A stretch of DNA of 34,931 bases, from the NCBI GenBank assembly GCA_007695175.1, contig REEH01000138.1, positions 1-34,931 on the forward strand, written 5' to 3'. Shown here one piece after another: positions 3,258-23,062 of this stretch. The position numbers and the translations under genes are program-made. The stretch comes from Spirochaetaceae bacterium. GTDB taxonomy: Bacteria > Spirochaetota > Spirochaetia > DSM-27196 > Alkalispirochaetaceae. Each line of letters opens with the position of its first letter. Within the stretch, counting starts at the first letter, position 1. The notes beneath the pieces were generated by a model. It searched no databases. It was not told where the DNA came from and worked only from the letters and a program-made list of their open reading frames with translations.

Positions 3258-5018
3258 CTATTTCACCGTACCTCGCTTGATTTTTTTGGTGGAGGTCATT
3301 TCCATCTCTTCATCCACCAGAATCGTGCGATTGATCCGCTGATAGGGCTGAAGCCGGTGATTGACTTCCGCCACGATTGCCTTGATACGAGCCTCGATCT
3401 CTTCCGGCGTCGCGGCAGTACCATCCCCCGGAGCGGCGGCTCCGCCCGAGGCAAAAAGTTCCTTGTTGGGATATACCAGAGCCTCGATGAGTTCACCACC
3501 GTGGCCCGTTTCAGCGTGGTAGCCGCGTACCAGAATCTGGGCGATCTCGTCGTACAGCTGAAATTCGTTTTCAATCTCTTCCGGGAAGACGTTTTTCCCG
3601 CCCTCCCCCACTATGAGGTTCCGGGCACGGCCGGTAAGGTAGAGGTAGTTCTCTGCATCCAGGTACCCCAGGTCACCGGTACGAAAAAACCCGTCCTCCG
3701 TAAAGACCTCCGCCGTCTCCTCCGGCATCCGGTAATAGCCCTGCATGACCATGGGACCTTTTACGATTATCTCCCCCACACCCCGCTCGTCGGGATCCAG
3801 GATCCGCAGATCCGCCTGGGGAATCACCTTGCCTACGCTGGTTTCCTTGTAGTGTTCCACCGGGTTGAGCGTCAGAATGGGTGATGTCTCGGTAAGGCCG
3901 TATCCCTGCACGAAATCTATCCCCAGCTGGTTGTACTGCCGGAAGATACTCGGAGCCAGAGGGCCTCCGCCGGAAATGCAGATCCGGATCGATGCGAGTG
4001 ATGCTTTGTCGAGAACGCTGTGAAAGAGTTTCTTGCCCGGGTTTTTTCCGGTTACTTTCTTGGTCGCTCCCGAGATCGCCATGAGCGTACGGATGATCCC
4101 GTATACCACCGGTCCCTTTTCCCGGATTCCCCGCATGATCCCGGCGAGCAGCTTGTTGAAGAGCATGGGCACGCCGAGAAACATCGTCACCTGGGCTGCC
4201 TTGAGATCGCTCAGGATCTGCTTGACCACAACCCGCTTGCCGAAGACAGTCTCGGCCCCCACGGAGAAACTCTCGATGAAGACCGCCAGCATGCAGTAGC
4301 TGTGGTGTATGGGAAGGAGCGCGTAAAACACGTCCGTATGAAGGATCGTAAGGTTTGCCTGCGCCAGAAAACAGTCCGCCACCAGGTTCTGATGCGTCAG
4401 GACGACGCCCTTCGGGCGGCCCGTCGTGCCGGAAGTAAAGAGGATTGCCGCCGTATCGGACTCTCCCGCGGGCACAACGGGATAACTCGTCTCCGTTCTC
4501 AGCTCGTAAATGTACGGCTTATGCGCCCGGGACAGGCTTACCACGGCATCAAGCTTGACCGGATGGCGTGTATCCCCGGGGCCACCGCCGGCAAAGACCT
4601 CAAATCGTTCCTCGTCGATGAAAAGAACCCGGGCGCCGCCGGCGTGAATCAGGTTGGCGATTTCCCCGTCGTGCAGCTGGTAATCTATGGGAACGACCAC
4701 GGCACCGGCAAAAAGTGTCGCCAGGTACGCTATGGCCCACTCGGGGCTGTTTTTCCCGGATACCGCAACGCGATCGCCCCGTTCCACCCCGAGTGACCGC
4801 AGGTGTTGCGCCACCGCCAGGATGCGGGCATGAGCCTCCCTGTAGGTCAGGCTTACCCGTTCCGGTTCGTACACGGTAAAGCAGGGACGATCGGGAAAAC
4901 GGTTCACCGATATTCCGAAGAGCTCCGGCAGGGTGGGCCACGTTCCGGAGAAGACTTTGCCATGGTATTCCTTCAGGAAGTCCCAGGGATTCGTTTCGGT
5001 AGTTCTCTTGTGCGCCAT
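3258..5018 (-). CDS. Long-chain fatty acid--CoA ligase (AMP-forming)
   Basis: A 586-residue ANL-superfamily adenylate-forming enzyme that would activate a fatty acid with ATP and transfer it to CoA. The order of motifs is complete: P-loop FTSGTTGRPKG (194-204), A5 GYGLTETSP (372-380), A7 RTGDLGYLD (446-454), the hinge region with TGRARNLIV (462-470), and the C-terminal catalytic lysine region TSTKKIKRG near residue 577. Between A3 and A5 it has the lid segment usual for long-chain FadD-type enzymes. It is an intact paralogue of the split acyl-CoA synthetase at 14.5-16.9 kb. A TAGACT hexamer ends six bases before the ATG and there is no Shine-Dalgarno sequence. Acyl chain preference cannot be read from the sequence. 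Confidence 0.93.
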   Translation of the reverse strand: MAHKRTTETNPWDFLKEYHGKVFSGTWPTLPELFGISVNRFPDRPCFTVYEPERVSLTYREAHARILAVAQHLRSLGVERGDRVAVSGKNSPEWAIAYLATLFAGAVVVPIDYQLHDGEIANLIHAGGARVLFIDEERFEVFAGGGPGDTRHPVKLDAVVSLSRAHKPYIYELRTETSYPVVPAGESDTAAILFTSGTTGRPKGVVLTHQNLVADCFLAQANLTILHTDVFYALLPIHHSYCMLAVFIESFSVGAETVFGKRVVVKQILSDLKAAQVTMFLGVPMLFNKLLAGIMRGIREKGPVVYGIIRTLMAISGATKKVTGKNPGKKLFHSVLDKASLASIRICISGGGPLAPSIFRQYNQLGIDFVQGYGLTETSPILTLNPVEHYKETSVGKVIPQADLRILDPDERGVGEIIVKGPMVMQGYYRMPEETAEVFTEDGFFRTGDLGYLDAENYLYLTGRARNLIVGEGGKNVFPEEIENEFQLYDEIAQILVRGYHAETGHGGELIEALVYPNKELFASGGAAAPGDGTAATPEEIEARIKAIVAEVNHRLQPYQRINRTILVDEEMEMTSTKKIKRGTVK

Positions 5019-12700: not shown

Positions 12701-12934
12701 ATGCGGGAGATAATGGGGCATACCCCAGGCAAGATTTATCTGTTCATTCTGCTCGTGTCCATTGTGGCACTTGCAGCGGCGGCGTTTACGGGAGTGATGG
12801 ACACCCCGGAGGGCGCGGCACCGACTCTGGTTCTCGGTTGGATGACGATGCCCCTGGTGCTGGGATTCGCCTTTGTGGCGGTCTGGCTGGTGGCGTATCT
12901 CGTCTATTTCTTCTTCTTCTGGCCATACCGGTGA
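12701..12934 (+). CDS. Small two-helix membrane protein paired with the SSS symporter
   Basis: A 77-residue protein with two clear membrane helices (about 12-29 and 44-68), ending in aromatic residues (FFFFWPYR). The start is fixed by AGGAGGT five bases upstream; a longer in-frame reading from 12578 would run through the promoter. It lies 23 bases before a sodium:solute symporter gene. Small membrane proteins of this size preceding SSS transporters are known (YhdT before PanF, DUF485 before ActP), and this is probably an accessory subunit of the same kind. I cannot assign it to one named family. Confidence 0.75.
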   Translation: MREIMGHTPGKIYLFILLVSIVALAAAAFTGVMDTPEGAAPTLVLGWMTMPLVLGFAFVAVWLVAYLVYFFFFWPYR

Positions 12935-12957: not shown

Positions 12958-14481
12958 ATGGATCTACTTGTTCTTGGCATTTTCGGCCTTATTATCATCG
13001 CCCTTGCCGCGTACGGCTACAAGATCTCCGCCCGTACCGCCGAGGATTTCATGTTGGGGGGGCGCACCATCGGCGTGGTGGTGATGTTCTTCTTCGTCCT
13101 TTTCGCGGTCTCCTCAAGCTGGACATTCTACGGTTTTCCCGGAATGCTCTACCTGGAAGGACCGGGATACGTATTCTTCGTCTGGGGTTCCGTCGCCGGT
13201 TTTGCCGGGCTGTACATGTTTCTCGGACCACGCCTCTGGGCCCTGGCCAAGCTCAATCGCTTTCTCTCCCCGGTGGAGGCGCTCTCGGAACGGTACCAGT
13301 CCAAGGCGCTGCGGGTGATACTGAGCGTAACGATACTGGCGTTCATCATTCCCTACGTAGGGGTGCAGCCCCTCGGCGTGGGCCGGGGATTTGAGGCGCT
13401 TACGGGCCTCCCCCTCTGGGTGGGCGCGGTGTACACCGCGACCCTTCTGGTCTTCCTCGTACTGCTGGGCGGTATGAGAATCGTTGCCTGGGTCAATATC
13501 TTCCTCGGCACCGTCTATGTCACGGCGCTTCTGGGGTCCCTGATCTGGATCGTGGCAGTACTCTTTCCCGAGGGCGGACTTGCGGAAGCAGCAGCGCGAG
13601 TGGCAGCGACCGCTCCTGAGAAACTGAGCACGCCCGGGCCCAACGAGACATTCACGCCGGTGCTGGTCTTCGGCACGTTCCTTGTGGGTCTGCTGGCGTT
13701 TTCCTGGCCCCATATCACGATCGGTGCGATGACCGCCCGCGACAAGAACCTCTTCAAGTGGTTTCCCCTGCTGATTTTTATCCTTGGCGGTTTCTTTTTC
13801 TACACCATTCCCTTTCTCTGGGGATCCATCGTCGCTCCCGCGATCATGCCCGGCGTTACCGACGTGGCCGAGGCGGACCGGATCGTGCAGACGATCATCC
13901 AGACCTATCTCCCGGCATGGTTCGGTGTCTTTGTGCTGATGGGCGTTATCGCCGCGGCTATATCAACGGCCGCGGTACAGCTGATGATGTCCAGTATCCT
14001 GGTGGCCCGGGATATCGTTCAGGGTGTCTTCATGCCCGATGCGACCGACGAACAGATCACCACGATCGCACGCTGGTCCGTCATCGGAATCGTCGTGGCG
14101 AGCCTGGCGGTGACCGCGGCGGTGGAACTGGGACTCGGCCAGGAAGCGATGGCGCTCTACCTCACGGACGTGAGCGTACCGGGCTTCGCCCAATGGGGTC
14201 CCGCCCTGGTAGGTGGATTACTCTGGAAACGGGGCACCAAGCAGGGAGCGATCGCCGCAACGGTGGTGGGCACCCTCTACCTTGTATTGGGACTGATTAT
14301 TACCGGGCCGGACGGATCACGGTTCCTCCTCTTCAACCTGCACCCGGTGATCCCCACCCTTCCGGTGAACATCCTGGTTTACATTGTGGTCAGCCTTGTG
14401 ACGCCGCGCATGGACGCGCAAACGGAGGCCATATTCTTTGACGAGGTGGAGGATTTCCTCCTGACGGAGACAAACACGTAA
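12958..14481 (+). CDS. Sodium:solute symporter (SSS family)
   Basis: A 507-residue LeuT-fold transporter with about 13 helices. Recognisable SSS features are the ARTAEDFMLGGRTIG entry (about 26-40), ALSERYQSKALRVI after helix 3, GGMRIVAWVNIFLG (about 166-179) and the helix 8 region AAAISTAAVQLMMSSILVARD, with the Na+-site small residues. The substrate is likely a small carboxylate or nutrient, but no subfamily signature is decisive. The stop and the next ATG are separated by a single base, so the downstream chimeric gene is translationally coupled to it. The order small protein, symporter, acyl-activating genes suggests uptake followed by activation of a carboxylic acid. Confidence 0.9.
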   Translation: MDLLVLGIFGLIIIALAAYGYKISARTAEDFMLGGRTIGVVVMFFFVLFAVSSSWTFYGFPGMLYLEGPGYVFFVWGSVAGFAGLYMFLGPRLWALAKLNRFLSPVEALSERYQSKALRVILSVTILAFIIPYVGVQPLGVGRGFEALTGLPLWVGAVYTATLLVFLVLLGGMRIVAWVNIFLGTVYVTALLGSLIWIVAVLFPEGGLAEAAARVAATAPEKLSTPGPNETFTPVLVFGTFLVGLLAFSWPHITIGAMTARDKNLFKWFPLLIFILGGFFFYTIPFLWGSIVAPAIMPGVTDVAEADRIVQTIIQTYLPAWFGVFVLMGVIAAAISTAAVQLMMSSILVARDIVQGVFMPDATDEQITTIARWSVIGIVVASLAVTAAVELGLGQEAMALYLTDVSVPGFAQWGPALVGGLLWKRGTKQGAIAATVVGTLYLVLGLIITGPDGSRFLLFNLHPVIPTLPVNILVYIVVSLVTPRMDAQTEAIFFDEVEDFLLTETNT

Positions 14482-14482
14482 T

Positions 14483-16024
14483 ATGGGACTATTCGGATTC
14501 GGAAAAAAGACGACGGGCGGCCCGGCGGCCGGCCCGGGTGGCCCCGCCGATTCTGAGGGCGCCGCCGGCCTGGGCGCCCCCGCAGGTTCCGCGGGCGCCG
14601 CCGGCCCTCACCCGGGCTGGCGACTTATCTACAACCCAAAGGGTGATGCCGCGGACATTCTGGCCAATGCGACGGGCCTCACGGAGGGCCGGATCGCGGG
14701 GAAGTACATGCTTTCCAAGGAACGCCTCCCCGATACGGTCGTGATCCAGGGAGTAATCCGCAAGGGCATCATCGCCGGAGCGGACCTCAACGTGGATCAG
14801 GAAGCGGCGCAGCGGGAGAAAATCGACGTGGCGCGCCAGCCCCGGAGCGGCCGCTCCGGCATTCAATCGGTGGGCACCGTCTCCCTGGCCGACTTGATAA
14901 CCAAGTCCTCCGATTCCTTCCACGCCCAGCCCGTTGATCTTGATCAGCCGGCGGTACTTCTTTACACCTCCGGCACCACGGGGAAACCCAAAGGCGTGAT
15001 GCTGACCCACAATAACTTCTACGCCCAGTGTTCCCAGGTGGTGCCTTCCGTATTCGACATGAAGCCGGAAGACCGGGTAGTGATGGTGCTGCCCCTCTTC
15101 CATGTGTACGCCCTGTCCAACGGACTGGTGGCATCGATCTACAACGGCTGCTCCATGGCTCTCGTTTCGCACTATTCTCCCACCAATCTCCTGAGCGCGA
15201 TCGCGGACCAGGGGGCAACGCTGCTGATCGCGATCCCCACGATGTACCAGCACCTGCTCCAGTCGGCGCGCATCCGCAAGCAGTCGATTCCCAGGACGCT
15301 CCGGGCGTGTATTTCCGGCGGAGCACCCCTGGCAGTTGCGACGATCAAGGAGTTCGAGGAGCTCTTTGACACCCGCATCAACGAGGGGTACGGCCTCACC
15401 GAGACGTCCTCCGCCGTATCGCTCAACCCCAGCGGTGAGGGCTACAAGGAGGGATCGATCGGACCTCCCGCAAATGGCGTGGAGATGGCGATCATGGACG
15501 ACGAGGGCAATCTCCTGGGCAACAACCAGGAGGGAGAAATCGTCATCCGCGGTGGCGTCGTGACAAAGGGATACTGGAATAACCCGGAGGCCACGGAGGA
15601 ATCGATTTACGGCGGATGGTTTCACTCGGGTGATCTGGGCCATCGCGATGACGACGGGTACTACTTCATCACGGATCGCAAGAAGGATCTTATCATCCGC
15701 GGCGGATTCAATATTTCGCCCCGGGAGGTGGAGGAAGCGATCGCAACCAACCCCAAGGTGCAGGAAGCGGCCGTGGTAGCGGTCCGGGACAAGCGGGAGC
15801 GGGAAGCGGTGAAGGCTTTCGTGGTTCTCAAGGAGCCTGGCTCGATAACCACGAGCGAGCTGTCCGAGTTCTGTACCGCCAACCTGGCCCCGTACAAGGT
15901 GCCCAAACTCTTCGAGATCGTGGAGGCCCTGCCCAAGAATGCCTCGGGGAAAGTACTCCGACGGGAGCTCCGGGGGGAAGCTACGGACGATCGCCTGATA
16001 GAGAAGGAAGACCATGAGCAATAA
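14483..16024 (+). CDS. Chimera: lipoate-ligase-like N-half fused to acyl-CoA synthetase C-part
   Basis: A 513-residue protein made of two unrelated pieces. Residues 1-45 are a Gly/Ala/Pro-rich extension. Residues 46-131 match the N-terminal half of LplA/LipM-type ligases: WRLIYNPKGDA, PDTVVIQGVIRKGIIAG, NVDQEA, and RQPRSGRSGIQSVG in the position of the usual RRxxGGGAxxHDxG. From T132 the sequence is an acyl-CoA synthetase entered midway: SLADLI, P-loop YTSGTTGKPKG (161-171), GYGLTETSS (302-310), SGDLGHRDD (382-390), DRKKDLIIRGG (398-408) and the terminal SGKVLRR. The synthetase's N-terminal subdomain is absent here but present in the next gene. The switch occurs at GCACC, 14874-14878. Pieces are certain; whether the protein is active is unknown. 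Confidence 0.9.
   Translation: MGLFGFGKKTTGGPAAGPGGPADSEGAAGLGAPAGSAGAAGPHPGWRLIYNPKGDAADILANATGLTEGRIAGKYMLSKERLPDTVVIQGVIRKGIIAGADLNVDQEAAQREKIDVARQPRSGRSGIQSVGTVSLADLITKSSDSFHAQPVDLDQPAVLLYTSGTTGKPKGVMLTHNNFYAQCSQVVPSVFDMKPEDRVVMVLPLFHVYALSNGLVASIYNGCSMALVSHYSPTNLLSAIADQGATLLIAIPTMYQHLLQSARIRKQSIPRTLRACISGGAPLAVATIKEFEELFDTRINEGYGLTETSSAVSLNPSGEGYKEGSIGPPANGVEMAIMDDEGNLLGNNQEGEIVIRGGVVTKGYWNNPEATEESIYGGWFHSGDLGHRDDDGYYFITDRKKDLIIRGGFNISPREVEEAIATNPKVQEAAVVAVRDKREREAVKAFVVLKEPGSITTSELSEFCTANLAPYKVPKLFEIVEALPKNASGKVLRRELRGEATDDRLIEKEDHEQ
14557..14606 (+). repeat. GC-rich direct repeat in the Gly/Ala/Pro linker
   Basis: The 14-mer GGGCGCCGCCGGCC occurs at 14557-14570 and again at 14593-14606, 36 bases apart and therefore in frame. 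It encodes a repeated GAAG segment. The surrounding 100 bases are almost entirely G and C and form the N-terminal low-complexity extension of the chimeric protein. Confidence 0.8.
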
Positions 16025-16439
16025 CAGCATCATCACGGAACCGGCCACGCTCGGACAGATTCTCGAACAGGTAGCCCATAAGTACAAGCGGAAGGAAGCG
16101 ATTCTGTTTGGTGGCCGTACGATCACCTACGGAGAGCTGGACAAGAACGCAAACCGCGTGGCCAACGGACTCAGGAAACTCGGTATCGAGCCGGGGGACA
16201 GGGTAGCCATGATGCTCCCCAACATCCCGGAGTTCATCTACACCTTCTACGGGATACAGAAGCTGGGTGCCACGGCCGTTCCCTTCAACGCAATGTACAA
16301 GGGCCGCGAGATTGTTCATATCATGAACAACAGTGGCGCCCGGGCAATCGTGGCGCTGGCAAATTTTATCAACCTGATCAACGAGATACGGGACGAGATG
16401 CCCGCCCTGGAGCATGTGATCATGGCAGGGGAGCGCACC
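14874..16439 (+). other. Apparent insertion of a circularly permuted acyl-CoA synthetase gene into a lipoate-ligase-like gene
   Basis: The bases GCACC occur at 14874-14878 and 16435-16439. Everything between is acyl-CoA synthetase, but with its C-terminal part first and its N-terminal part second. Joining the outer sequences at one GCACC gives an uninterrupted 295-codon ligase-like frame (391 + 497 bases). Joining the inner sequence into a ring gives an uninterrupted 523-codon synthetase frame (421 + 1151 bases, overlapping itself by 11). Both products are in frame and read through conserved motifs at the join (GTLVF for the ligase, ERTVSLADLI for the synthetase). Confidence 0.8.
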
Positions 16440-16931
16440 CTCGTATTTGTCAGTCCGGAATCAACGGTGAATGTGCAGTTCGTTGTGGACAAATCGAGTT
16501 TTGGCGACGGCGATGCGGCATTCCGCACCGTGGGAGAAATGCTGGAGCAGACCTTTCATGACCTGGGCGCCACCGACGCGTGGTACAAGCACCGGGGCAG
16601 CATCCGCGCAAAGGGTCGAAAGCTGGCGACCGTTCTCGTCTCGGAGATCGAGAATCTGTACATCGTGAACACGGTGTCCTTTCTCGGTCCTCTGAAAACG
16701 GAGGATTTCTTTCGCGTCATCTGGGTTACCCCCGAGGTCAAGGACAAAGTGGTTGAACCGATGACCAGCGTGGAAGAACTCATCGGCCGACGTCCTTCGC
16801 TGGAGGAATTCCGGGACGCTTTCGTGCGACGCCTGGAGGAACGCTTCGGGAGCTCCGTCGAGCCGGGCGACCTGAAACGGGACGAACTCTTCGGGTACGA
16901 GAAAACGCGCGCCCTGGCGTACAGGAAATAG
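16014..16931 (+). CDS. Chimera: acyl-CoA synthetase N-part fused to lipoate-ligase-like C-half
   Basis: A 305-residue protein. Residues 1-140 are the N-terminal subdomain of an acyl-CoA synthetase (GGRTITYGELDKNANRVANGL, GDRVAMMLPNIPEFIYTFYGIQKLGA, then MPALEHVIMAGE) and stop before the ATP-binding P-loop. From R141 the sequence is the C-terminal half of an LplA-like ligase: TLVFVSPES, the helix FRTVGEMLEQTFHDLGATDAW, the GSIRAKGRKLAT segment with the lysine (K203) in the position of the lipoyl-AMP-binding lysine, and the accessory region TSVEELIGRRPSLEEFRDAFVRRL. It is the exact complement of the preceding gene, overlaps it by 11 bases and has its own GAAGGAAG ribosome binding site inside that gene. 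Neither piece should act alone; a complex of the two proteins could restore both folds. Confidence 0.88.
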   Translation: MSNNSIITEPATLGQILEQVAHKYKRKEAILFGGRTITYGELDKNANRVANGLRKLGIEPGDRVAMMLPNIPEFIYTFYGIQKLGATAVPFNAMYKGREIVHIMNNSGARAIVALANFINLINEIRDEMPALEHVIMAGERTLVFVSPESTVNVQFVVDKSSFGDGDAAFRTVGEMLEQTFHDLGATDAWYKHRGSIRAKGRKLATVLVSEIENLYIVNTVSFLGPLKTEDFFRVIWVTPEVKDKVVEPMTSVEELIGRRPSLEEFRDAFVRRLEERFGSSVEPGDLKRDELFGYEKTRALAYRK

Positions 16932-19941: not shown

Positions 19942-21639
19942 CTACAGGTCCAGCTCAAGCAGGCCGTCCGGGGTCAGGCGGCGGTAAAAACACCGTCGCC
20001 TGTGGTCTCCCGCCTCGTTCCCCGCCTCGTTCCGGGTGTGACACACCCCCGTGCCGTTCATGGTAACGAGGAAAAGAAGCGCATCCTGGTCGCAGTCCAC
20101 GCGTATCTCCTCAACGGAAAGCGTGTCACCACTGGTCATGCCCTTGGTCCATATCTCCCTGCGACTGGTACTCCAGAACGTGGCCAGTCCCGTTTCCACC
20201 GTTCTCCGGAGCGCTTCCGCGTTCACGGAGGCCATCATGAGGATATCACCTGTTTTCGCGTCCTGAACGGCAACGGGCAGAATACCTCCCCGTTTCCCGA
20301 ACTGGGGCAGGAAGACCGATTCCTCCTCAATCACCTGCTCCATAACGGACTCTCCCCCGATGTCCCGCCGGAAAGCCATATCCTCAAAGGAAACCTGCAT
20401 CAGGCGAGCGTACGCCGCTCGCCGCGCTGCCGTGAGTGTTGATCCGGTGCCGGTAACGGTGAGAACCCGTCCACCGGCGGTAACCAGTTCTTCACCGGAG
20501 GGGGCGATTTCAACTGCGTGGTAATAGAGGTTGTCCCCGCCGCCACCGGCGTCGGTGACAGTTTTTCCCCTGGCAAAAGGCCCCGGATACCCCGCCGCGA
20601 TGGCAACGACCGCACAGGTCGTTCCGGAACGTATAGCGAACCGGGATTCCCCGATCGCATCGGCCAGGTTATTCCGGGCCAGGCCATGCATCAGGAGACC
20701 AAAGTCGCCCTCCAGGAGGGGCAGAATCGCCTGAATCTCGGGATCGCCAAACCGCACCTTGTAACTCAGCAGGGACGGTCCCTCTTCGTTCAGTATAAAA
20801 ACACAGTGAAGCACGCCCCGATACCCCTCGTCGCCCGCTGCCTCCCGAAAGGCCTCAACGCTGGGTCGTATGATACGAGATTCGATCCGGCGCCCCACCT
20901 CGTCCGTAACGGCCGGATTCGGCACGATGGAGCCCATACCGATCGTGTTCGGTCCCGTTCCGCCCTCACCCACCTGAGGGTGATCCAGGACCGACGGCAG
21001 GATGAGGTACGCCGAGGAGTCCAGCAGCACCGTGACCGACGCGGCGATCCCCGGCACGAATTGCTCGATCACGATCCGGTCCCCGGCGCTTCCAAACCGG
21101 CGCTGCCGCAAGGCTCCATCGATTGCGATTTCCGCCCCCTCCCGGGAATGACACAAGGTCACTCCCGTGCCACGAGCGGGCCCGTCGGCCTTTATGAGCA
21201 TCGGTGTCTGGAAATCCTCGATCAAACGAAGTGCCTCGTCCAGACTCGTACTGTCCCGGTACGCCGGCGTGGGAATCCCGTAGCGCTCCATCAGTGCCTT
21301 GGCGGAAGCTTTGCTCCCGCCGGTCAGGGCGACCGAGCGGGAGGGACCCACCACGGCGAAACCATCGCTTCTCAGATCATCGGCCAGGCCCGCCCGGAGC
21401 GGCTCCGTCGGTCCCACCAGGACCAGATCCGGCTGCTCCTCCGCCACGAGCGACCGCAGTTCACCGGCCGTCAGTGCGCTTTCCGCCGCCCCGATTCCGC
21501 GGACGGTGCAGCATGGATCACGGGCGATTCCGGCGTTGCCCGGAAGAACGGTAACGGAGGAGACGCTCTCACTGTCCGCCAGGCGCCGCGCCAGGGCATG
21601 CTCCCTCCCGCCCGATCCGATTACGAGAGTCTTCAACAT
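19942..21639 (-). CDS. Fusion of a PurD-like domain with phosphoribosyl-AMP cyclohydrolase (HisI)
   Basis: A 565-residue fusion. Residues 1-432 follow GAR synthetase (PurD): VIGSGGREHALA (6-17), VGPTEPL (75-81), GTGPNTIGMG (227-236), RFGDPEIQ (296-303). The metal-binding Glu and Asn of the usual EFN-RFGDPE motif are S292 and K294, and the AGKGV loop is RGTGV, so GAR synthetase activity is doubtful. Residues about 445-554 are HisI, which opens the purine ring of phosphoribosyl-AMP in histidine synthesis. Its DCDQD (515-519), C533 and C550 metal ligands and WTKGMTSG (497-504) are kept, with an extra NEAGNEAG insert between the last two cysteines. ATG 21639 is chosen because conserved PurD sequence begins there; a TAGAAT box lies 10 bases before it. 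It follows purB by 13 bases. Confidence 0.88.
   Translation of the reverse strand: MLKTLVIGSGGREHALARRLADSESVSSVTVLPGNAGIARDPCCTVRGIGAAESALTAGELRSLVAEEQPDLVLVGPTEPLRAGLADDLRSDGFAVVGPSRSVALTGGSKASAKALMERYGIPTPAYRDSTSLDEALRLIEDFQTPMLIKADGPARGTGVTLCHSREGAEIAIDGALRQRRFGSAGDRIVIEQFVPGIAASVTVLLDSSAYLILPSVLDHPQVGEGGTGPNTIGMGSIVPNPAVTDEVGRRIESRIIRPSVEAFREAAGDEGYRGVLHCVFILNEEGPSLLSYKVRFGDPEIQAILPLLEGDFGLLMHGLARNNLADAIGESRFAIRSGTTCAVVAIAAGYPGPFARGKTVTDAGGGGDNLYYHAVEIAPSGEELVTAGGRVLTVTGTGSTLTAARRAAYARLMQVSFEDMAFRRDIGGESVMEQVIEEESVFLPQFGKRGGILPVAVQDAKTGDILMMASVNAEALRRTVETGLATFWSTSRREIWTKGMTSGDTLSVEEIRVDCDQDALLFLVTMNGTGVCHTRNEAGNEAGDHRRRCFYRRLTPDGLLELDL
20011..20034. repeat. 12-bp tandem duplication inside the HisI domain
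   Basis: CGCCTCGTTCCC is followed directly by CGCCTCGTTCCG. On the coding strand this duplicates four codons and gives NEAGNEAG, placed between the two C-terminal zinc-ligand cysteines of HisI. Confidence 0.85.
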
Positions 21640-21652
21640 GATACCGACTATT

Positions 21653-23062
21653 CTACAGCGTTTTCCGGTGGTGCGCGCATATTTCCCGTGTTTTCTCGAC
21701 CGCTTTTCCGATATACCGCGAGGGATCGGCAAAAACAAGGGCCGGGTCCTTCCCCGTGAGGCGTCGGCACGTTTCCTCCACCTGGCGCCAGAGCTCGCGG
21801 TCCTCCCGGGCAAGGTCCAGGACGGGACGGTTCTCTCGTTCCGCTGTCAGGGTTATGCGCCTCACCTGTTCGTGAGCATCGGCGGCGCCTCCCGCGGCGA
21901 GGAGGATGTACAGAGGCTCAGCCACGATCCGGCGTGATCCCTCCCGGAGATTACGCTCGATTCCCTCGTGATCCACCCGCAGCCTTTCCACGATGGATCG
22001 CATGCGTTCCGCCGCCGCGACGAATCCCGCTATGAACTCCACCACGAACCGCCCGGAGGCGGAGTTGGAGAGGTCCCGCTGATGCTCCGAGATCTGGTCC
22101 ATGAACCATGTCATCGCCCGGGGACTGAAAGCCTTCCAGAGACTCTTCACGTGCTCCGCGTTCCAGGGATTCCGTTTATGGGGCATCGTGGAGGACCCGA
22201 CCTGCCCGGCGGAGAAGTACTCCGAGAACTCTCCGATCTCCGAACGCTGCAGGTGTCGCAGGTCATCGGCGAGATTCGCGATCACCCCGAAGGCGATGTT
22301 CATTTCCAGGAGCAGCCGCAGGAGATACTCGGGACTCACGATCTGGGTCGCGTGTTCTCCCGGTGTCAGACCCAGGTCCGCCAGTACCGCCCGCTCAAAC
22401 GCTTCCGGGTCAGGGTGCAGAACCGCTGTAGCGTTGTACGCGCCTACGGCACCGGCCAGTTTTCCCCGCAGATCTCCCGCGGCGCTCTCGATGCGGGTGA
22501 TGCTGTTGCCAAGACGGGAAACATACTCCGCCAGGGCAAATCCGACGGTAATCGGTACCGCATGCTGTCCGTGAGTCCTCCCGATCGAGACAGTCTCCGC
22601 TTCCCGGTCCGCCAGCCCGATGAGAGCTTCTTCCAGACTCCGCAAGAGAGGCACCACCACCTGGCGGGTCACGTCCCTGTACCGGATCGCGGCGGCCGTA
22701 TCCAGAATATCCACCGAGGTCGCTCCGAGGTGCACCAGATGGCGCACGCTCTCGGGGAGGTGGCGCTGAATCACGTTTACCACCGCCCGGATATTGTGGT
22801 GTGTCGTTTCCTCTTCCCGGTACACCTCGGAAACGTCCACCCGATCCGGGAGCGTCCTGATCTCCTGCAGCACCGGTTCCTTCGTCCCGGGCAGGAGGTG
22901 CCGCACCAGGTGATCCAGCAGTACGGACTCCACCAGAACACACTGCCCTACGGATGCTTCCTCGCTCAGAAAGTCCGCAAGGCGTTCAAAGAGTTCCTCG
23001 TTTGCGAGGTAGTAACGATGATCCAGGGGTGACAGATTGCGAAAACGGTTTCCTGCGTGCAT
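21653..23062 (-). CDS. purB: Adenylosuccinate lyase
   Basis: A 469-residue member of the fumarase/aspartase superfamily. PurB cleaves adenylosuccinate to AMP and SAICAR to AICAR, releasing fumarate. The N-terminus reads RNLSPLDHRYY. The catalytic histidine region is GRTHGQHAVPIT, and the mobile catalytic loop is GSSTMPHKRNPWNAEH. The ATG at 23062 is preferred over the longer frame from 23248, because residues encoded upstream are Arg/Pro-rich and unlike the family; no strong Shine-Dalgarno sequence is seen. It is the first gene of a two-gene unit with the PurD-HisI fusion. AICAR is a product of both the histidine and the purine pathway, so the pairing is metabolically sensible. Confidence 0.88.
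   Translation of the reverse strand: MHAGNRFRNLSPLDHRYYLANEELFERLADFLSEEASVGQCVLVESVLLDHLVRHLLPGTKEPVLQEIRTLPDRVDVSEVYREEETTHHNIRAVVNVIQRHLPESVRHLVHLGATSVDILDTAAAIRYRDVTRQVVVPLLRSLEEALIGLADREAETVSIGRTHGQHAVPITVGFALAEYVSRLGNSITRIESAAGDLRGKLAGAVGAYNATAVLHPDPEAFERAVLADLGLTPGEHATQIVSPEYLLRLLLEMNIAFGVIANLADDLRHLQRSEIGEFSEYFSAGQVGSSTMPHKRNPWNAEHVKSLWKAFSPRAMTWFMDQISEHQRDLSNSASGRFVVEFIAGFVAAAERMRSIVERLRVDHEGIERNLREGSRRIVAEPLYILLAAGGAADAHEQVRRITLTAERENRPVLDLAREDRELWRQVEETCRRLTGKDPALVFADPSRYIGKAVEKTREICAHHRKTL

Follow-up and report, generated by a model that had tools for sequence, protein, structure and literature searches.

The bovine lipoate-activating enzyme is a medium-chain acyl-CoA synthetase, and among the ADP-forming acyl-CoA synthetases whole domains have been shuffled between subunits. 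In known lipoate ligases, an accessory domain is tied to the formation of lipoyl-AMP (PMC7253636; PMC10332631), and ATP-dependent activation has been connected with the acquisition of LplB (PMC10332631). LIPT1 of vertebrates, a half-ligase, transfers pre-formed lipoyl-AMP and cannot make lipoyl-AMP itself (PMC7253636), and the human multivitamin carrier SMVT (SLC5A6), which transports lipoate, biotin, and pantothenate, belongs to the sodium symporter family (PMC8747999). In the locus described here, the pieces of an LplA-like ligase domain and of an acyl-CoA synthetase are distributed reciprocally over two adjacent genes, which follow a gene for a sodium:solute symporter. The locus lies in a stretch of 34,931 nucleotides from a Spirochaetaceae bacterium (GCA_007695175.1, contig REEH01000138.1), which is referred to below as the window.

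Gene arrangement

The features of the locus, all on the + strand, are as follows.

12701..12934, +, small membrane protein, 77 aa from the ATG at 12701, before the symporter; ORF homologues present in 9 of the first 37 loci compared
12958..14481, +, sodium:solute symporter (SSF), directly 5' of gene 1; Pfam SSF E 1e-28
14483..16024, +, gene 1, LplN-synC chimera, 513 aa; residues 46-510 align through the junction in relatives
14483..14617, +, Gly/Ala-rich N-terminal extension of gene 1, unconserved, missing from most relatives; pLDDT ~30
14618..14878, +, LplN, the N-terminal half of an LplA-like catalytic domain (residues 46-132), ending PRxGRxGA...GT; hhalign to the LplA N-terminus, A and R invariant, G-R near-invariant
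14874..14878, +, junction 1 (GCACC), LplN to synC, by sequence reading
14879..16021, +, synC, the synthetase from just 5' of the P-loop (YTSGTTG) through the C-terminal domain, which holds the catalytic Lys; Pfam AMP-binding and AMP-binding_C, conserved motifs, structure match Z 25 to 8wev
16014..16931, +, gene 2, synN-LplC chimera, 305 aa; its start overlaps the end of gene 1 by 11 bases
16014..16439, +, synN, synthetase residues 1-142; Pfam AMP-binding profile 1-121
16435..16439, +, junction 2 (GCACC), synN to LplC, by sequence reading
16440..16928, +, LplC, the C-terminal half of an LplA-like catalytic domain, WYKHxGxxRxxGxKhA including the LplA Lys equivalent; Pfam LplA-B_cat, with Lys, WY, H, G, R, and G invariant in 40/40 rows

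Exchange of the tails at GCACC yields an open ligase-like frame of 295 residues and an open synthetase frame of 523 residues with neither gap nor overlap, synC making up the last two thirds of an ANL acyl-CoA synthetase and synN supplying the absent front. A first, sequence-only reading of the window had described the two genes as reciprocal chimeras of an LplA-like protein and an acyl-CoA synthetase, and Pfam, hhalign, and the alignments of the restored frames agree with this description; its coordinates, reading frames, 11-base overlap, and positions of GCACC (14874-14878 and 16435-16439) are likewise correct, and the two frames that it restored by swapping are both open and seamless. The nearest NCBIfam models to the symporter are panF and putP, both under cut-off (panF at 135 bits vs 328 needed), and the small membrane protein before it has no Pfam match.

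Other reading frames of the window include a 545-aa antisense ORF opposite gene 1 (14489-16126, - strand), which recurs in two other relatives and looks like a shadow of codon composition. An intact, unsplit AMP-binding enzyme of 586 aa (3258-5018, - strand), a different synthetase, is encoded ~9 kb from the chimeric pair. A 623-aa ORF (19942-21813, - strand) fuses PurD (GARS_N, GARS_A, GARS_C) to HisI (PRA-CH, phosphoribosyl-AMP cyclohydrolase), an unusual fusion of purine and histidine enzymes with a 609-aa homologue in the relative L024.

The synthetase and its cut

The Pfam AMP-binding domain is split between the two genes. Gene 1 covers positions 129-384 of the profile (E 3e-64) and also has AMP-binding_C, and gene 2 covers positions 1-121 (E 3e-32), the composite being PF00501 + PF13193. 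Alignment of the restored synthetase to solved synthetases continues across the junction (8weu, E 1e-85), and the synthetase motifs, all intact according to the earlier reading, are conserved in 40 rows of the composite, including the P-loop YTSGTTG-KG, YGxTE, GD...D...DRxKD, and the C-terminal GK lysine. By sequence, the composite is a member of the ANL acyl-CoA synthetase family with a predicted activity of that kind. Relative to intact synthetases, the cut falls in a variable loop that follows the first part and precedes the P-loop. Both synN (0.95) and synC (0.999) recover the split synthetases as one monophyletic group, and of the intact synthetases in the set used, L070 is the closest to either piece, as expected for one ancestral synthetase source.

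The ligase and its changed motifs

Gene 2 passes the Pfam LplA-B_cat cut-off, matching the back part of the profile, and this model (PF21948) matches the restored ligase of relatives in 11/11 cases (best E 7e-10). The profile of the restored ligase aligns with that of true LplA over 226 columns (hhalign E 5e-16), the N-half and the C-half both being collinear with true LplA, and in one comparison LplN alone was collinear with the LplA N-terminus (E 7e-5). These profile alignments, together with the fold comparison described below, bear out the LplA-like nature proposed for the N-half of gene 1 and the C-half of gene 2. A PDB sequence search with the restored ligase profile gave no match up to E 10, and the restored ligase is linked to an LplA structure by fold comparison only.

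The cut in the ligase is placed after the substrate loop, which reads RRxSGGGAV...G in LplA and PRxGRxGA...GT in the chimeras. Three hallmarks of the Lpl part are changed, namely RRxTGGGA to PRxGRxGA, the ND before the lysine to G-x, and KxSG to KxAT. Since the signatures of canonical ATP-dependent ligases (the RRxSGGGAV loop, the ND before the lysine, and the Gly of KxSG) are absent from the composite, it was not filed as a canonical ligase, and with these residues altered the Lpl part may be a pseudoenzyme or a scaffold. The equivalent of the LplA catalytic lysine of KxxG is invariant in 40/40 rows together with the WYKHxGxxR motif, which suggests a working site. The accessory LplB domain (PF10437) had no match in gene 2 or in the restored protein; gene 2 stops after the catalytic domain, and no such domain occurs among the conserved neighbours. 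LplC has no invariant Cys; the octanoyltransferases LipB and LipM place their catalytic cysteine differently.

The nearest unsplit relative found is a 370-aa protein of L229 (5154-6266, - strand) with a canonical GGGG loop, an AWYRHIGD motif, and a C-terminal extension; it has AWYRHxG in common with the split family, with 29% identity over 205 positions, and its gene adjoins genes that read, by eye, as a TRAP transporter. Long LplA proteins of ~520-590 aa are encoded in L186-L192, the one in L186 with Lip_prot_lig_C and DUF116, and these genes adjoin others reading as Hdr-like, GcvH-like, and FAD-dependent reductase.

Conservation and distribution

In a first search, 60 relatives were queried with the restored ligase and 38 genomes matched, from eight families of the window's order; in most of the 38, the ligase halves lie ~1.5-1.9 kb apart on the same strand, and no strong match spanned both halves in one piece among the 60 relatives searched. 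Adjacent chimeric pairs were extracted from 42 genomes (42 pairs) of Spirochaetota, including the window's order and a second class, and of a second phylum. Whole-chimera alignments of gene 1 and gene 2 run through both junctions in these relatives, and the recurrence of the same junctions in related genomes, by which the sequence-only reading had proposed to check itself, is seen in the 42 pairs. L064 is a MAG named Deltaproteobacteria; its class has the arrangement in 13 of 291 genomes, and its phylum in about ten of 395. In L230, a 2.07-Mb contig of the second phylum, the small membrane gene, the symporter, and both chimeras are present, the small gene standing directly before the symporter (by eye). 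Genome G012, which we take to be Spirochaeta africana, carries the arrangement on one contig of 3,285,855 bp. The genome of Salinispira pacifica (G008), PacBio sequenced at 365x (PMC4511686), carries it on one contig of 3,782,798 bp, and the earlier concern that long reads might expose an assembly chimera is answered by this closed genome.

The symporter is directly 5' of gene 1 in 38/42 pairs. The stop-start spacing ranges from -53 to +160, with an overlap in most of the pairs, and no single ORF fusing all four pieces was found among the 42. Beyond the symporter and the small membrane gene, no conserved neighbours were found in the 37 loci first compared. The parts are under purifying selection, with dN/dS of 0.02-0.12 against congeners (nine part comparisons, covering all four parts), and the part-to-part distance correlations among the four parts are 0.74-0.84. 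The trees of gene 1 and gene 2 have 19 strongly supported splits in common and one conflict, those of the Lpl and synthetase parts have 18 in common and no conflict, and the rows of the two phyla separate in the gene trees. The arrangement is ancient, conserved, and of single origin, and it is not an assembly error, a pseudogene, or a recent insertion.

Halves that appeared unlinked in G063 and G841 (L165, L164, L227, and L228) were considered as a sign of action in trans and set aside, the separations being N-filled scaffold joins inside genes.

Predicted structure of the pair

For structure prediction, the overlap was read with one four-letter step (TAAC=N), which gives a single chain of 815 residues, and gene 1 alone served as a control; the AlphaFold2 alignments were shallow in both cases (24 rows for the linked pair, 13 for gene 1 alone). 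The linked pair was predicted with pLDDT 81 and pTM 0.76, values that belong to one artificially linked chain and not to a two-chain prediction. In VIA-align, residues 43-815 of the model match the LplA of T. acidophilum (3r07) with Z 22.0 over 228/255 residues at rmsd 3.2, a predicted LplA fold built from both genes. Residues 133-493 match synthetases (Z 25), and the top Foldseek rows for the linked model are synthetases; the pieces of the synthetase stand in permuted order, and so no full-length superposition is obtained, the docking of synN on synC being implied by the pTM of the model. In gene 1 alone, the mean pLDDT of LplN is 35 vs 83 in the linked chain and that of the junction-proximal part of synC is 66 vs 87, with the remaining synthetase at ~80. 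The linked-chain prediction and its control favour complementation without proving it, and the earlier suggestion of a two-protein complex with complementing halves gains support from the predicted composite LplA fold of the linked model and from the collapse of LplN in gene 1 alone.

Proposed mechanism and function

The arrangement, its conservation, the selection on its parts, the seamless complementarity of the pieces, and the predicted composite Lpl fold are results of computation, and they are best explained by an obligate heterodimer whose subunits interlock, with the two enzyme folds interlaced, a reading to which we give a probability of about 0.8. In such a heterodimer, synN of gene 2 and synC of gene 1 would form one AMP-forming acyl-CoA synthetase, and LplN of gene 1 and LplC of gene 2 would form one LplA-type acyl-transferring domain. 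The path LplN-synC / synN-LplC would correspond to a circularly permuted synthetase within the ligase domain, in a single chain cut once, between the synthetase's own ends. Neither protein would be expected to be active alone.

With the linked symporter, the heterodimer would serve the uptake and activation of an external carboxylic acid, and we infer that the locus is a carboxylate import-and-activation operon. The presence of a half-ligase-like domain, an acyl-adenylating enzyme, and an SSF symporter further suggests a relay, in which the synthetase half-pair would turn the imported carboxylate into an acyl-adenylate (or acyl-CoA) and the LplA half-pair, with no activating capacity of its own, would pass the acyl group to a protein lysine; we propose this relay tentatively as the leading idea on function, at rather less than even odds. 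Its least certain step is the last, in which the Lpl part, with the LplA lysine kept and no LplB accessory domain, would take over the acyl group made on the synthetase and transfer it to an acceptor such as a protein lysine. Since each polypeptide holds half of both enzymes, neither enzyme of the relay would exist without the other. All 26 genomes tested have a match to the glycine cleavage H protein and canonical LplA-family matches, so that the pair is not the sole ligase of its hosts, and lipoate is only one candidate substrate.

Alternative explanations

A substantial share, short of half, of the probability placed on the heterodimer goes to a form of it in which catalysis is left to the synthetase and the Lpl domain acts as a scaffold or as a sensor, binding acyl-AMP, for instance, or coupling to the symporter. 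The loss of the GGG, ND, and KxSG signatures and the canonical LplA-family proteins of the same genomes are in favour of such a role, and the invariance of the Lys equivalent and of WYKHxGxxR in all 40 rows, suggestive of a working site, weighs against it.

It is unlikely that the two chimeras fold independently and have activities of their own (e.g., gene 1 as a shortened synthetase and gene 2 as a regulator), with selection for adjacency but not for complementation. The altered Lpl active-site motifs would fit such proteins, and the symporter linkage could be their sole functional link, but each protein would then hold halves of two catalytic folds while its neighbour supplies the missing pieces without overlap. 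Gene 1 alone is moreover predicted poorly exactly where gene 2 is needed, and the pair is found together wherever contigs permit.

A programmed rearrangement, in which excision of the 1561-bp segment at the GCACC repeats restores intact genes in some cells, would account for the exact restoration of both frames but is very improbable. The identity of GCACC at the two junctions is peculiar to the window's genome; in most relatives, Thr (or Ser) is encoded at both junctions, with codons that differ between the two, and the longest common run around them is 2-5 bases and varies in place. No excision site is thus indicated, and neither the conserved core repeat nor the linked recombinase gene of a programmed excision element was found at the junctions and neighbourhoods of the relatives. 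The residues at the chimeric junctions hold their place, the window's genome has one copy of the region, and no restored form was seen among the relatives searched; GCACC is not a recombination core at present. The sequence-only reading had favoured integration of a 1561-bp circle with a crossover at GCACC, which as written is not supported, given the age of the event (common to two phyla, with a single-origin tree) and the unconserved GCACC. Circle integration is one possible ancient origin of the arrangement. Another route with the same outcome, equally compatible with the data, is that a nested synthetase was duplicated in tandem, after which the outer parts were lost and the gene underwent fission.

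An assembly chimera, or a pair of pseudogenes left where an insertion recently disrupted two genes, as the 256-contig draft state of the window's genome and the apparently distant halves in G063 and G841 might suggest, has close to negligible probability in view of identical junctions in dozens of independent assemblies, closed ones included, the purifying selection on the parts, and the N-filled joins behind both exceptions.

Significance and comparison with known systems

If the heterodimer is real, the locus is a natural, conserved case of two unrelated enzymes with chains exchanged inside their catalytic folds, in which the assembly of one enforces that of the other. It would bear on protein evolution by insertion, circular permutation, and gene fission, would provide a naturally evolved design for coupling enzymes obligately, and may bring to light a bacterial route of acyl transfer resembling mammalian lipoate salvage. 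Annotation is affected as well: both genes score as incomplete acyl-CoA ligases, and the second enzyme can readily be missed. No report of such a pair was found in the open-access literature searched, and we know of no case in which the domains of two unrelated enzymes are exchanged internally and reciprocally between adjacent genes and kept so across phyla.

Like the ANL acyl-CoA synthetases (FadD13, 3r44; feruloyl-CoA synthetase, 8weu; oxalyl-CoA synthetase, 5ie0), the restored synthetase has all motifs and both domains and aligns end to end, whereas here its N-terminal domain is cut, its pieces are carried by two polypeptides with their order on the DNA reversed, and each piece is fused to half of the other enzyme. 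With the LplA catalytic domain (3r07 of Thermoplasma acidophilum; L229), the pair has in common the predicted composite fold, the LplA-B_cat profile, and the lysine; it differs in the split after the substrate loop, the altered loop signatures, the missing LplB part, and the interposed synthetase. The bipartite LplA-LplB ligases of archaea also need two polypeptides for one ligase, but there the cut separates two domains, whereas here it runs through the catalytic domain and the other fold belongs to an unrelated adenylating enzyme. The ADP-forming acyl-CoA synthetases likewise have subunits with exchanged pieces, while here both folds are cut internally and the exchange is reciprocal. Mammalian lipoate salvage (SMVT, the lipoate-activating enzyme, and LIPT1) similarly combines a sodium symporter, an acyl-adenylating enzyme, and an LplA-fold transferase without its own activation (PMC8747999; PMC7253636), as separate proteins in contrast to the physical interlacing predicted here. 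The folds of the pair are themselves known ones.
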